In this document: positions 38,805 to 46,572 of the stretch, piece after piece
Layout of the letters: every line of letters starts with the position of its first letter
Numbering within the stretch: position 1 is the stretch's first letter
NCBI GenBank assembly: GCA_018335335.1
Contig: JAGXKG010000010.1
Span: 1-52,079 of the forward strand
Direction of reading: 5' to 3'
Origin: Candidatus Thorarchaeota archaeon
GTDB lineage: Archaea > Asgardarchaeota > Thorarchaeia > Thorarchaeales > Thorarchaeaceae
Length of the DNA: 52,079 bases
The notes under the pieces: model-generated
Databases searched by the model: none
What the model was told of the DNA's origin: nothing
What the model saw: the letters and a program-made list of their open reading frames with translations, nothing else
Translations under genes and position numbers: made by a program

Positions 38805-39671
38805 TCATATTAGGTATATCAATGTGGCCAAATGAGCAGCCCAAGGAAACATACCGAGAATTGCAGGTATTGGAATTGCCGGTAGTATCTTACCCTTCTC
38901 AGCTATAACGGTCAGATTGATTACGATTCCTAAGAAGGATAATGCCATTGAGCTTAGCCAAACAAATTTCGGAAAGAAAAGGAATGCATGTGAAGAGATG
39001 AGTGAATAAGCAATGAAATCTCCAACACCAACTACGATGCTTTGTGATTCAATCCTTGTATAATCGAAGGGATCCTCACCAATTTTCCCGTCCATTTGTG
39101 CAGATCTGACAGCCGGAGAATAACGGGTAAGAAGATAATCCTCTGCTACAATGGTAAAAACAAGAACAAACATCGTAGAAGTAACTAAAGTTGCGGCAAG
39201 GAAAGTTCCAAACACAGCACCATAGAATGCCACGTATATGTTCCGGATTGCAGTGGGAATGGCATCTATTACAACAAGAATAATGGACACCATCGAAACC
39301 CCGATTGAGAGAACCATTACAAACCCTTCCAATGGAGTCTGTGCGCCCTTGAATAGTACCAGAAGGAAAGCTTGACCTAAGAAAAGGGAGACGAAGAAAA
39401 TGATAGGAGAGACAACAAAAGCCACAACTAATTTCTTTGCACCTCTACCACGCTTATGAAGTATCCAGAATAACGAGATTACAACAAGTGATCCAACAAC
39501 TGTTGATAATACTGCCTGCAGGACCAGTTCTAAAGGAGTGAATGAATCTCCGTTTCCTATCGTCTGCCCAATTAGTGACGTACCACTTACCACGTGGGCC
39601 AACCCAGAACCAACAAGTAGGGGAAGAGACGAAATAGCTATTCCGAAAAGATGTGACTTCTCAATATTCAT
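38805..39671 (-). CDS. Presenilin/signal-peptide-peptidase-like intramembrane aspartyl protease
   Basis: A 288-residue protein with eight or nine transmembrane helices. The second catalytic motif GxGD is present as VVGVGDFIAYS (Asp218), and the PAL motif near the C-terminus as LPAIPIPAIL (264-271). The first catalytic Asp is probably Asp178 in IVAEDYLLTRY, where presenilins have YD; about 40 residues separate the two Asp, a plausible loop. Archaeal presenilin homologues have this size. It would cleave helices within the membrane; substrates are unknown. ATG start with GGAG-like purines upstream. Confidence 0.75.
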   Translation of the reverse strand: MNIEKSHLFGIAISSLPLLVGSGLAHVVSGTSLIGQTIGNGDSFTPLELVLQAVLSTVVGSLVVISLFWILHKRGRGAKKLVVAFVVSPIIFFVSLFLGQAFLLVLFKGAQTPLEGFVMVLSIGVSMVSIILVVIDAIPTAIRNIYVAFYGAVFGTFLAATLVTSTMFVLVFTIVAEDYLLTRYSPAVRSAQMDGKIGEDPFDYTRIESQSIVVGVGDFIAYSLISSHAFLFFPKFVWLSSMALSFLGIVINLTVIAEKGKILPAIPIPAILGMFPWAAHLATLIYLI

Positions 39672-39791: not shown

Positions 39792-41624
39792 CTATCGCTG
39801 TCTCATTAAGACATATCCGCCAACTAGAATGACAACTGCTGCGCCGACTGCACCGGCAACTAGAGCCAATGTAAGATCGGGAGCTGTGGGCTCTGGTGTT
39901 GTTGTCGTTGGAGTTGTTGGTTCTTGAGGTGCGTAGAAGTAGTTCGGGTTCCTGCTAATCTCGCAGAACTCTCCCGCAACGTACTCCGACACGTTGAACG
40001 GACCAGAGGTTACCATCTCTTCAGCTGGTGGATTGGGATCCCAAGTGTTCCAGGCATTAAGGCCAATTTCGGTGAATACATGCTTGGGAATGATTGGCTT
40101 GTACGAGACCGTGTGTAGGTGCCAGTATGACTCAGTGTTGAATTCCACCTCAAGTGTGTAAGGTGTCTTCGCGTAAGCCGCTGTCATCTCTGTTAAATCA
40201 GCACCATACGGATTACCGGGTGAATCACGGAAGTAGTTCAGCGAGAATGCAACGTCCTCGGCTGTTAGCGGTTCGCCGTCTGTCCAGGTTGCGTTCTGGA
40301 GCATATTGAAGGTAAACCGTGTGTGACCTTCTGTGATTTCTGCATTGTCTTCGTGAGTCTCTGCCGTGTAGTCGGTAATAAGCCAGTTGACATCTCTGCC
40401 TTCCCAGTCCTGAGTAATCAGGCTGTCGTACAGCATCATTAGGATGTTGTTGGTGTACGCAGAAGAGCTAACCATAGTATTGAAGGTATCAATATCGAGC
40501 GGATTGCTCCACGTGAAAGTACCTCCGAATGGGCCGCCCTGTGAGTCCTTCAGGTGAACCTTGTAGTTGGTCCAGTATCCTGGGACACCACCGCTAACAT
40601 CGTTCTTGAAGCCTTCGAATCTGTCGGTTCTGTAGGCCGAAATCTCGAAGTTCTCGTACGCGATAATCATTGGAGACTGGTAAACCCAAATCTTCTGCAT
40701 CTCCTTGGCTGCTTCCATTACCTCATTGTAATCAGTTGAGTGAAGCAGCTGATCCCTCCAGCTATCGTAGGTTGCGTTCTGGAAGTTCGGGAAGTTCCAG
40801 TATGGCTCATCAGCATATTCAGACCAGTACGAATAGGCAAGCCAGTCAACATCAAAAGTGCTGAATGACGAACCAAGGAATACCATGTCGTAGTCACCGT
40901 GGAAGTACAACCGGTTCAGGTATTCGTAGAAGTCAGTTGGCTCCGAGGTGGCATCAACATTGAGTGCCTGTAGAGCGTCAGCGAAAATTGCACCAACCTC
41001 AATTGCGATTTCGGATGAGTCAGCACACTCGATTAGGATATCAAAGTCCGAACCGTCGGGTGCTTCTCTGTATCCGTCATCATCAACATCAGCAAACCCG
41101 GCTGCATCAAGCATATTATTGCCAAGTTCGACGTTGGCCTCGTAGTAGTGGTATGTGAGCTCATCTTCAACAGAGAATGGGTTCACTTGCGGTACACAGC
41201 TGTCCTGTGGATAGGACAGACCATCCCAAACGTCGTCAGAAATGGCTTGCTTATCTACTGCGAAAGCAAGAGCCCTTCTGAAGACGGTCAGGTTCTGTGG
41301 ATACGCATCGTCTCTGGTGTTGATGGTTACATACCCGTATCCGTTTCTGAGATTATCCGCTGTATCGATGTTGTCTGCCTCGTCAAGTTCCTGCAGGAAG
41401 CTTGGATCGACCATGTCACCGATTAGGTCGATTTCACCATCTTGCAGAGCGAGAACAGCCTGGTCTTCCTGCGAAATCACATCGTAGACAACCTTGTCTA
41501 CATAGGGGCCAGTCTTAATATCGTCCACGTATTGTGCTTCCGCGAACAATGGTGAGACGGCCATAAATGTGAACGCAGCAACCAAGAGAACAGCGAGTAT
41601 TCTCTTTGAACGACTGCTAAACAT
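39792..41624 (-). CDS. Oligopeptide-type ABC substrate-binding protein with permuted domain order
   Basis: A 610-residue lipid-free, membrane-tethered binding protein: signal peptide (1-30), binding domain, Thr/Pro-rich linker (569-582) and C-terminal helix (585-606). Compared with family-5 (OppA/DppA) proteins the halves are swapped. Residues 38-360 are the normally C-terminal part (YVDKVVYDVI, ALQDGEIDLIGD, FRRALAFAVDKQAI, DGYREAPDG, AYRTDRFEGF). Residues 363-565 are the normally N-terminal part (FGGTFTWSNPLDIDTFN, YDSLITQD, TWTDGEPLTAEDVAFSLNYF, TSGPFNVSEY, RNPNYF). It captures peptides or similar solutes for the adjacent permeases. ATG start with AAAGGAGAT upstream. Confidence 0.88.
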   Translation of the reverse strand: MFSSRSKRILAVLLVAAFTFMAVSPLFAEAQYVDDIKTGPYVDKVVYDVISQEDQAVLALQDGEIDLIGDMVDPSFLQELDEADNIDTADNLRNGYGYVTINTRDDAYPQNLTVFRRALAFAVDKQAISDDVWDGLSYPQDSCVPQVNPFSVEDELTYHYYEANVELGNNMLDAAGFADVDDDGYREAPDGSDFDILIECADSSEIAIEVGAIFADALQALNVDATSEPTDFYEYLNRLYFHGDYDMVFLGSSFSTFDVDWLAYSYWSEYADEPYWNFPNFQNATYDSWRDQLLHSTDYNEVMEAAKEMQKIWVYQSPMIIAYENFEISAYRTDRFEGFKNDVSGGVPGYWTNYKVHLKDSQGGPFGGTFTWSNPLDIDTFNTMVSSSAYTNNILMMLYDSLITQDWEGRDVNWLITDYTAETHEDNAEITEGHTRFTFNMLQNATWTDGEPLTAEDVAFSLNYFRDSPGNPYGADLTEMTAAYAKTPYTLEVEFNTESYWHLHTVSYKPIIPKHVFTEIGLNAWNTWDPNPPAEEMVTSGPFNVSEYVAGEFCEISRNPNYFYAPQEPTTPTTTTPEPTAPDLTLALVAGAVGAAVVILVGGYVLMRQR

Positions 41625-41899: not shown

Positions 41900-42949
41900 T
41901 CAAGTATACTTGATTCTGGGATCTAGAACTCCATATAGCAAGTCTGCAACGAAGTTGGCTAGAATCGCGGTGATGGCAATAATCATGAAGATAGCCTGCA
42001 CCACCGGATAATCCAGAATTATCAGACTGCTATAGATATATCGTCCAAGCCCATACCAGTTGAACACTGTCTCTGTCAAAGTAGCGCCATTGATGAGGAA
42101 ACCAAAGGTCATTGCAATTATTGTAACCATCGGTAACATGGCATTCTTGAGTCCATGCTTGTACAGTACTTGACTCTCATTTAGACCCTTTGCACGTGCA
42201 GTAAGGATGTAGTCCTCGGTCATGACATCGATTAGATTGTTCCGCATGTATAGGAAGTAGCCACCATAACCGCCAACACCCAACGCAATAACAGGCAAAA
42301 TAAGGTGTCGTAAGATATCCGCTGCAACCATAAGAGCTCCAAATGGACTCGTTTTTGCGGCCACCCATACATCGTAGGAAATCGTTCCTTTCAATGGAAA
42401 GTCGATTAGCCCACCCGTCATGTTAGGCAAGTAGTAGGCAAATACCATGAGCAGCATCATACCAAACCAGAATATTGGTAACGAGTATATGAACAACGCC
42501 ACAGTCACGGCACCAACGTCTTTCTTGGAACCAGGATCAGAAGCGACTCTCACTCCCGTCCAAATGCCCAATACAATAGAGACGATTGAAGCTGTGCCCA
42601 TCAAGAGTAGTGTGTTTGGAAGTCTCGACATAATCTCGTTAATCACCTTTGTTTGTGTGACAAACGAAATGCCGAAATTCCCGGTAAACATATTGACAAG
42701 ATATCGCCAGAACATGTAAATCCAGTCAAAGATGTCAGGATCTGGAACTAGGCCAAATCGCATATATAACTCTTCAAGAGCTTTCTGTGTAAGGTTGCGT
42801 CGCAACTCGTCGCTTATCATGAGGTCAACTGGGCTTACATTCAGAACCAAAGTTGGAAGTCTGAATAGGAAGAAGTTGAAACAAACAACGGCTACTACAA
42901 GCAGGAACATGTAAATGGCCCGTCTCATAACGTATTCACGCAATCCCAT
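41900..42949 (-). CDS. Oligopeptide ABC transporter permease, DppB/OppB-like
   Basis: A 349-residue inner-membrane permease with six helices. TM1 (YMFLLVVAVVCFNFFLFRLP) is followed by an outer loop, then IMSRLPNTLLLMG and the core with the EAA-type coupling motif ARAKGLNESQVLYKHGLKNAMLP and the closing GRYIYSSLIILDYPVVQAI. ATG at 42949 is preferred over ATG-upstream candidates because GGAGAA lies 6-7 nt before it; the longer frame (43009) is not needed. It has its own terminator and a terminator also lies upstream, so it is likely its own transcription unit within the cluster. Confidence 0.93.
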   Translation of the reverse strand: MGLREYVMRRAIYMFLLVVAVVCFNFFLFRLPTLVLNVSPVDLMISDELRRNLTQKALEELYMRFGLVPDPDIFDWIYMFWRYLVNMFTGNFGISFVTQTKVINEIMSRLPNTLLLMGTASIVSIVLGIWTGVRVASDPGSKKDVGAVTVALFIYSLPIFWFGMMLLMVFAYYLPNMTGGLIDFPLKGTISYDVWVAAKTSPFGALMVAADILRHLILPVIALGVGGYGGYFLYMRNNLIDVMTEDYILTARAKGLNESQVLYKHGLKNAMLPMVTIIAMTFGFLINGATLTETVFNWYGLGRYIYSSLIILDYPVVQAIFMIIAITAILANFVADLLYGVLDPRIKYT

Positions 42950-43099
42950 TTCTAGTTCTCCTTGAATTGTTGATTTACCATACCTAGCATTGCTAGGTAG
43001 AGCATTCAATTATTGGAAGATGTACTGAGGGTAATAAAGATGGCGTTGTACGCTAAGGGAGAATGTGTGAAATCAACTTCTGAAATCGGAGTACTTCAC

Positions 43100-43157: not shown

Positions 43158-44729
43158 CTAACGTTCTCGGAGTTTAGGATTGAGTATCTGATCCAGTGTG
43201 TGGCCAACGAAAGTGAATGCTAGGGAGAGGGTAGTGATGGTCACACCAGGGAATATTACAAGCCACCACGCACCATTTGCGAAAGCTCCTGAAGCTTGTG
43301 CGTCTGCAAGCATGCGTCCCCAGCTTGGTAAGCTAGGATCAGTCAGGCCCAGGAAAGCCAGTCCAGATTCAGATAAGATAGCTCCGACCACACCAAGAGT
43401 GATGTTTGCAAACAGGATTGGGGTGACATTAGGCAAGATGTGCCGAAACATAATGTAAGTATCGGACGCACCGATAGCACGAGCCGATTCAACATATGCT
43501 TTGTTCTTCTCCGCAAGAACCTGCGATCGAATCAGACGAGATGTGCCGGTCCAACCCAGTATAGCAATTACGACAATAATATTCTCTACACTTCTACCCA
43601 AGAAAGCTGCAAGAACCATCATCAAAGGTAAGCTCGGAATTACTAGCAAGAAGTCGACGACTCGCATCAGTGCTTCGTCTACTTTACCACCGAAGTATCC
43701 TGCAACAAGTCCAACTATCACACCAACAGCCGTAGAAAGCGCTGTGGCCATAACACCCACAATAAGAGAAACTCGGGAACCGTAAACGAGCTGGCTCCAT
43801 GCATCTGCACCCTTGTCGGTAGTGCCCAGTATTCCAAAGTATTCACCATATACTTTCATACCAAGCCTCGTAACTGTGACGTTAACAGACCCAGTCCATT
43901 CTTCCTCAGGTGACATACCACCATATGACAGGAATTTGTTGCTTGGTGCGAGAACACAGGCAACTGTAAGCTCATCACGTGGATCTTCTTGACTACCTTC
44001 TTCCTCCACCATCCCTTCCCAGCCTTCGCGCATATCCCAGTAGCTTAAGTCAATCCTTCGGCTTTGGATATTTGGATTGTACGGGGGGTAAGATTCGTAG
44101 ACTCGCCACCAGTTATCGGAACTATCCACAAGATAGAGGAAGACCTTGAACATCAATCCACCCTCTTCTTGACTGGCGAAGTCTCCGGTAAGTTCCGTAG
44201 CGTAGTCAAATGTCATGTTGACGTCGCCGGGTAGATTTTCATATGGCCAATCCAAAGTCTGTGTGAAATAGACATAGTCGTTACTCGAAGGGCGGTTCTC
44301 CGTATTGAGAGGTAAAGGCATAGGCCAATCCATTTCTCCAGGCGTATGTTCCCATATCATTTCGACTTTAGATTGATTGGCACCCGAACCGGCCCGATGA
44401 TCATACGAAAACTCATCCGTATTGGTTCCTTCCACAGTGAATGCTGGCTCCTCGTACAGATATTGGTCTGGCATATATTCATCTGTTACTACACCCTCAG
44501 GGTCAAATACAGATACCCATGAAGGAGCTCTGAATGTTGGTGCTACCTTGTTGTTAACCTTCGGATCATGTGTAGCAAGTGTTGGGGCAGAAACCGCCAT
44601 ACCAACATAGAATAACAGAATAACGATACCGACGAATCCTATTTTGTGTCGCCGGAACTCTTTCCAGAAGCCCATAAACGAGACATACCAGCCTGAATCT
44701 TTCCAACTGGTTTTCTTCTTTTCTGAAAT
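43158..44729 (-). CDS. DppC/OppC-like permease with large extracytoplasmic insertion (apparent ATT start)
   Basis: The permease core is clear: a first helix (FVGIVILLFYVGMAV), then ADAWSQLVYGSRVSLIVG and five more helices with EAA motif SARAIGASDTYIMFRHILPN. Between helix 1 and the core lie about 230 extra residues (Asp/Glu/Trp/Tyr-rich, strands, several Asn-x-Thr/Ser sequons), making the protein ~523 residues instead of ~300; this part must face outside. The first ATG (44675) has no ribosome site; upstream, in frame, ISEKKKTSWKDSGWYVSF resembles a normal OppC N-terminus, and GGAGG (44738-44742) is 8 nt before ATT at 44729 (5 nt before ATT at 44732). No ATG/GTG/TTG occurs between the upstream stop and 44675. 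Confidence 0.88.
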   Translation of the reverse strand: MSEKKKTSWKDSGWYVSFMGFWKEFRRHKIGFVGIVILLFYVGMAVSAPTLATHDPKVNNKVAPTFRAPSWVSVFDPEGVVTDEYMPDQYLYEEPAFTVEGTNTDEFSYDHRAGSGANQSKVEMIWEHTPGEMDWPMPLPLNTENRPSSNDYVYFTQTLDWPYENLPGDVNMTFDYATELTGDFASQEEGGLMFKVFLYLVDSSDNWWRVYESYPPYNPNIQSRRIDLSYWDMREGWEGMVEEEGSQEDPRDELTVACVLAPSNKFLSYGGMSPEEEWTGSVNVTVTRLGMKVYGEYFGILGTTDKGADAWSQLVYGSRVSLIVGVMATALSTAVGVIVGLVAGYFGGKVDEALMRVVDFLLVIPSLPLMMVLAAFLGRSVENIIVVIAILGWTGTSRLIRSQVLAEKNKAYVESARAIGASDTYIMFRHILPNVTPILFANITLGVVGAILSESGLAFLGLTDPSLPSWGRMLADAQASGAFANGAWWLVIFPGVTITTLSLAFTFVGHTLDQILNPKLRER

Positions 44730-45582: not shown

Positions 45583-46572
45583 ATGACGTTACTTGACGTT
45601 CGTAACCTGCGCATGTATTACCAGACTCAAACCGGCTTGGTAAAAGCCGTTGATAATGTCTCGATGGAATTGGATTCTGGCGAGTCCTTAGGACTTGCAG
45701 GAGAAAGTGGCTGTGGTAAGAGCAGCTTGGCCTATTCCATTATGCAGCTTCTTCCGCCAGCAGCAAACATTGTCGGAGGAAATGTATACTTCAAAGGCAC
45801 TGACCTGCTCAGAAAATCAGCACGGGAAATGAGGGATATCCGTTGGAAGAACGTAGCAATCGTATTCCAAGGAGCCATGAATGCCCTTAATCCAGTATTT
45901 GAAATTGGTGAGCAGATAGCTGAGGCAATTCTGATGCACGAGAACGTGACTGAAGAAGAAGCCCTCGATCGGTGTGCGAAACTCTTTGAAATGGTTGGCT
46001 TAGATCCTGGTAGAATTCATAACTATCCACACGAGTTTTCAGGAGGAATGAGACAGAGAGCGATGATTGCAATGGCACTCGCGTGTAACCCCGATTTGGT
46101 TATCGCCGACGAGCCAACAACTGCTCTTGACGTTACCATCCAGGCTCAAATCCTGAAACTCATGCAGAAGTTGCAGAAGGACCTTGGTCTCTCACTCATC
46201 CTTATCACTCACGATCTCAGCGTCATTGCAGAAACCTGTGACAAAACAGCAATCATGTACGCAGGAAGAATAGCAGAACTAGCGGATGTTGTGTCCGTTT
46301 ACAAGGATCCTATTCATCCATACACAACCGGATTGGTTGGAGCAATTCCAAGCATGGTCAAAGCGGAAAAGAAGAAGCTTACTTCAATTCCGGGAATTCC
46401 GCCCGATCTTGTTAATCCGCCTACTGGTTGTCGGTTCCACCCGCGTTGTCCTTATGCACAGGACATTTGTACACAAGAAGAACCAAGCTTTGATGAGATA
46501 GAACCCGGTAGATTTGTACACTGTCATTTCGCTGAGCAGCTCAAAGGTGAACTGAAACTGGACCTAGAATAA
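45583..46572 (+). CDS. Oligopeptide ABC transporter ATPase, DppD/OppD-like
   Basis: A 329-residue ABC ATPase energising peptide import. Walker [13 protein letters not shown]-loop [10 protein letters not shown], signature [12 protein letters not shown], Walker [13 protein letters not shown] and switch His in LITHDLSV are all present. The C-terminal oligopeptide extension has the Cys pattern [15 protein letters not shown] ... HC seen in OppD/DppD. ATG start. The partner ATPase gene starts 13 bp after its stop. These ATPases are transcribed away from the permease and binding-protein genes but clearly belong to the same transporter. Confidence 0.93.

Follow-up and report, generated by a model that had tools for sequence, protein, structure and literature searches.

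A probable natural circular permutation of a family-5 substrate-binding protein in Thorarchaeota, with indications of recurrence across prokaryotes

The stretch of DNA analysed here (the window; all 52,079 nucleotides of contig JAGXKG010000010.1, Candidatus Thorarchaeota archaeon, assembly GCA_018335335.1) carries a gene for an OppA/DppA-like substrate-binding protein (SBP) of family 5 (SBP_bac_5, PF00496). What sets this protein apart is the order of its parts, which were located as follows:

39792-41624, minus strand: open reading frame of the permuted SBP, 610 amino acids (aa), ATG start
41535..41624, minus strand: signal peptide region, residues 1-30, with a hydrophobic segment at 9-27 (hydropathy) and a low-confidence N-terminal tail in the structural model
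40563..41513, minus strand: normally C-terminal part of SBP_bac_5, here first, residues 38-354 (C1, 38-188; C2, 189-354), from Pfam and from phmmer against Protein Data Bank (PDB) sequences
40533..40562, minus strand: linker between the old C- and N-termini, residues 355-364, the gap separating the half-models
39927..40532, minus strand: normally N-terminal part of SBP_bac_5 (N), here last, residues 365-566, ending just past RNPNYF, from Pfam and PDB phmmer
39879..39926, minus strand: Pro/Thr-rich stalk, residues 567-582, sequence EPTTPTTTTPEPT; the predicted local distance difference test score (pLDDT) is below 50 over residues 570-610
39807..39878, minus strand: C-terminal transmembrane anchor, residues 583-606; the top 19-residue hydropathy windows begin at 583-589

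Three comparisons place the two halves of the protein in swapped order. A Pfam scan of the whole protein scored 188 bits for SBP_bac_5 (cut-off 32.4; E 3.7e-55), split into two stretches, of which residues 37-270 align with positions 143-364 of the 368-position profile. When the halves were scanned separately, the first matched profile positions 144-364 (E 5e-33) and the second positions 10-141 (E 6e-23), each half thus falling on the opposite end of the model. Among PDB sequences, the top phmmer match, 7ebm_A, aligned query residues 113-354 with chain residues 269-518 and query residues 426-566 with chain residues 57-191. Fifty PDB sequences matched in all, best among them the Vibrio chitooligosaccharide-binding protein, Thermotoga TM1223 and Bacillus AppA, and the permuted order was present in none of the 50. 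Finally, a control hidden Markov model (HMM) made from normal-order relatives only (model length 504) aligned the native protein (P0001) with model positions 191-493 at the protein start and 3-188 at its end, while the sequence rotated in silico, a construct used for scoring only, matched in a single stretch from 3 to 493 of 504 (E 2e-88). By the curated sequence cut-off the protein is therefore a member of family 5, yet one without a collinear match of N-part followed by C-part. The original prediction had read the halves in reversed order, with the signal peptide ahead of the C-half and the membrane anchor behind the N-half, and had proposed that the old termini are joined and new ones opened after RNPNYF; all of this is borne out, with the join at approximately residues 355-364. 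The new opening lies between the RNPNYF motif and a strand starting PYVDKVVY, corresponding in alignment to about mature residue 213 of Escherichia coli OppA. An internal repeat or duplicated domain was ruled out as the cause of the swapped matches, since each half is present in a single copy and the surrounding DNA contains no repeat.

Do the rearranged halves still make up one protein? AlphaFold2, run on 35 homologues, gave a mean pLDDT of 86 and a predicted template modelling score (pTM) of 0.79 for the whole 610-aa chain; most blocks between residues 40 and 560 exceed 90, and only residues 1-31 and 570-610 are disordered. With some 70 of the 610 residues disordered, a pTM of 0.79 would not be expected for two halves positioned independently of each other. 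In the model, then, both halves share one bilobed fold, as the original prediction had anticipated. The top Foldseek matches in the PDB all belong to family 5, and ~312 of ~500 columns were aligned to full-length AppA (E 4e-21), as expected of a sequence-order aligner that follows one part of a permuted chain; by itself, this result is no proof of a joint fold. Domain I of OppA comprises residues 1-44, 169-270 and 487-517, which puts both old termini as well as the new opening inside domain I. Consequently, the number of chain crossings between the lobes should stay the same, and a normal ligand cleft can still form. Taken together, we consider the 610-aa protein to be, with high probability, a topological variant of family 5, namely a naturally circularly permuted OppA/DppA/AppA-like SBP.

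This order, C1-C2-N, hereafter type A, is widespread among relatives of the source organism. Domain order was read with segment HMMs for N, C1 and C2, which gave zero matches to 242 reversed open reading frames included as a specificity control. In the source genome, all seven SBP_bac_5 genes found are permuted, one of them truncated by a contig end. A profile spanning the junction, searched against 228 genomes of the phylum, matches 45 of the 47 genomes of the same family. Sister genomes carry up to ~19 matches, and in dozens of further genomes the junction is kept across an alignment of ~240 positions. Eight other well-assembled family members hold about 38 complete permuted copies and 16 normal-order ones (counted by hand from the match list). 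In one array of a sister genome, seven type A genes stand in a row with no transporter genes in between (L141:2444-16222, minus strand). Each half occurs just once in every type A protein, the linker measures 4-18 aa (median 10) across 63 homologues, and more than 70 distinct collinear homologues retain both halves. Type A also occurs in the Asgard families f9, f20 and f21, and once in f8. Outside the Asgard archaea its spread was judged from a plasmid collection of other prokaryotes, in which it was not seen. One candidate from that side, H17 (L111, Rhizobium plasmid CP087973), where a single tblastn piece extends over 37-562, was rejected as a bacterial type A protein: there, two tandem normal-order SBP genes share one reading frame, unannotated in that record, in the order N-C1-C2-N-C1.

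A second permutation, type B, has the order C2-N-C1 and opens in the loop AG(F/Y)-D-DGDG-RE, at approximately OppA residue 356 in domain III. We found it in the Asgard families f9, f12, f15, f16, f18, f20 and f22, in haloarchaea (Halalkalicoccus, Halorussus, Haladaptatus, Natrononativus, Natronorubrum and Halobacterium) and in alphaproteobacteria (Nitratireductor, Maritalea, Neorhizobium, Roseomonas and Ketogulonicigenium), its spread beyond the Asgard archaea again being judged from the plasmid collection. These genes mostly head permease-permease-ATPase operons and are annotated as an ordinary 'ABC transporter substrate-binding protein' (ABC, ATP-binding cassette); for one type B protein (L093), AlphaFold2 gave a pTM of 0.78. 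A third opening, inside C1, is represented by a single Asgard example (L103:775-2805, minus strand), in which a Pfam stretch at 379-585 covers profile positions 3-177 and the later part of C1 sits at the N-terminus. The type B loci are:

L109, L110, L113-L118, L126-L128, L093, L094, L101 and L147-L156: SBP genes of order C2-N-C1

Have these permutations arisen once or several times? In a tree of 78 rows, for which all proteins were first put in one common order, 23 of the 25 type A proteins group together and adjoin normal-order Asgard SBPs of families f14 and f16 (SH-aLRT, a Shimodaira-Hasegawa-like approximate likelihood ratio test, 97), while type B is scattered over several places, one of them beside E. 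coli DppA. A single clade of all permuted proteins was rejected (log-likelihood difference, delta lnL, 213; approximately unbiased test, p-AU 3e-142), as was a single clade of type B (delta lnL 133, p-AU 6e-11). For a single type A clade the value is p-AU 0.011, an effect of two proteins, L008 with its long branch and L099 from f8; without these two, the 23 type A rows form one group with a support of 86. Because the tree searches were quick, the sequences diverged and the groups partly named after the first tree had been seen, counts of origins are approximate, but multiple origins look firm. It thus seems likely that family-5 SBPs have been permuted repeatedly and convergently, with at least two opening sites (in domain I after NPNYF and in domain III at DGDG), perhaps a third (L103), and roughly four or more origins in Asgard archaea, haloarchaea and alphaproteobacteria, that the genes of the permuted forms are carried in full ABC operons, and that in some Asgards permuted forms are the main family-5 SBPs.

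In the window, the permuted SBP gene is linked to genes for OppBC-type permeases and OppDF-type ATPases:

41900..43009, minus strand: OppB permease, upstream of the SBP gene in the same operon; PF00528 (E 2.9e-39), best NCBIfam matches Opp2B/DppB/Opp4B
43158..44675, minus strand: OppC permease, upstream on the same strand, 505 aa; PF12911 at 3-41, PF00528 at 318-503; Opp4C E 1e-72
45583..46572, plus strand: OppD-type ATPase, divergent; PF00005, PF08352
46586..47632, plus strand: OppF-type ATPase; PF00005, PF08352

The same cluster is retained in the relatives G011 and G009, there with OppB between two OppC copies. What the analysis shows is the swapped order and how well it is conserved, the operon, and a single fold at the level of prediction. 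The protein is most probably a working oligopeptide-binding protein: secreted and tethered at the cell surface by its C-terminal stalk and transmembrane helix, it would bind an oligopeptide (or, less likely, an oligosaccharide) and pass this ligand to OppBC, with OppDF supplying the power. The nearest solved structures are those of peptide, chitooligosaccharide and mannooligosaccharide binders. Moving the tether may itself be of benefit to such a protein.

Type A proteins could instead have left transport altogether and serve mainly as surface receptors, adhesins or protease helpers. Several type A paralogues run on after the SBP into immunoglobulin (Ig)-like repeats, and in three genomes (G008, G001 and G016) the permuted SBP is followed by a complete Peptidase_S8 domain (E 1e-33 to 1e-35) and further sequence:

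L129:1298-9058, L130:1376-8935 and L131:1684-8613: reading frames of SBP-subtilisin fusions, 2310-2587 aa

Two of the three fusions have Ig-like matches beyond Peptidase_S8, and the G008 fusion, the one read in its entirety, has a transmembrane segment at its end. Going by this domain arrangement, a protease with a built-in peptide catcher would be the natural reading, which supports peptides as the ligands of those copies and suggests a surface machine combining protein cutting with peptide capture. The copies per genome also exceed what one transporter would need. The window copy and its orthologues, however, stand in the conserved OppB/OppC and OppD/OppF cluster, and we regard a general departure from transport as unlikely; it probably holds for some paralogues and not for the copy in the window.

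How might type A have come about? The most likely route would be that a normal SBP gene was duplicated in tandem and the two copies fused, after which the outer halves were lost; this would have happened once for the main Asgard clade and been followed by expansion. The Rhizobium reading frame described above could illustrate what a duplication-fusion intermediate looks like, by analogy and nothing more. A rival explanation would make the gene either a chimera, put together from two truncated SBP genes with no relation to each other, or a gene in decay, in both cases with parts that have no joint fold. Trees of the separate halves bear on this: both keep type A together and share its main internal groups, which favours one permuted gene over a chimera. 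Two observations weigh on the other side. While the C-half tree places type A with the normal-order f14/f16 proteins (support 99), no clear sister group of type A emerges from the N-half tree, which leaves a small probability for an origin by fusion of two different SBP genes, and no duplicated and fused intermediate was found in Asgard archaea. Against a chimera or a decaying gene speak the intact reading frame with its signal and anchor, the joint conservation of both halves in the collinear homologues, joined by a short linker throughout, and the pTM predicted for the whole chain; neither the normal-order match nor the chimera named beforehand as evidence against a permutation came to light, and we hold this explanation to be very improbable. 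A misjoining of two adjacent SBP genes in assembly or binning, conceivable for a draft genome of 176 contigs whose relatives contain tandem SBP genes, is refuted because the same junction recurs in dozens of genomes that were assembled independently, among them the single-contig G021 and G105, and in long contigs.

A circularly permuted SBP has precedent. TpMglB-2 (Tp0684) of Treponema pallidum is a natural circularly permuted glucose-binding lipoprotein, whose authors proposed tethering as a possible reason for the permutation and noted that it necessitates a fourth hinge crossing (PMC4990184). Like the protein described here, it is a membrane-tethered binding protein of an ABC transporter, but it has the Type I/cluster B sugar-binding fold (type Ic/cluster Bc), not that of family 5. 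Our protein showed no homology to MglB or the type I fold: Pfam returned SBP_bac_5 only, and no MglB-like PDB chain was matched. The two are hence analogous, not homologous. With the family-5 (cluster C) SBPs (PF00496; AppA, 1xoc; VhCBP, 6lzu; TM1223, 4pft; OppA; DppA) it shares homologous halves, the predicted fold, the operon partners and secretion; it differs from them in that the halves are swapped and the tether exits a loop of domain I rather than a native terminus. Its best NCBIfam match is Opp4A (NF045467; E 4e-37, in two stretches), just as the neighbouring OppC best matches Opp4C, but the order is swapped and the 127.7 bits lie far under the 650-bit cut-off. In the open literature, we found no report of permuted family-5 SBPs and nothing on peptide uptake by Thorarchaeota; PMC2588589 contains both terms with no link between them. 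The statement in the original prediction that no such arrangement is known in the family agrees with this literature search for family 5, although the arrangement is not unique to this gene and permutation has been described for another SBP: it is the recurrent permutation of family 5 that is so far unreported, circular permutation of SBPs as such being already known.

Normal and permuted forms coexisting in one organism with homologous permeases amount to a natural, repeated experiment in protein topology, and allow one to ask whether tether position or folding order matters for ABC import. Wherever profile searches, domain calls or annotation pipelines presuppose a linear order, they misdescribe permuted SBPs. 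That family-5 SBPs accept new termini in particular loops is of use in designing biosensors.

Further features of the neighbourhood were noted. The OppC of the window has ~230 additional residues between its first transmembrane segment and the permease core. These are retained in relatives; a long OppC is also present in a normal-order f16 cluster, and the usual 303 aa in a type B cluster (L145). In the relatives' clusters (L133:5686-10399, minus strand), two OppC-like permeases flank OppB; the window has one OppC. Directly downstream of the SBP gene, 38805-39671 (minus strand) encodes a membrane protein with the presenilin/signal-peptide-peptidase hallmarks EDY, GxGD and PxIPxPA, which are kept in four genomes; the Pfam match to Presenilin is weak (E 7.5e-7) and below the cut-off. 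This presenilin-like gene is conserved as a neighbour of the permuted SBP, and in G011 and G009 it is found downstream together with a gene for a 180-aa membrane-anchored protein.
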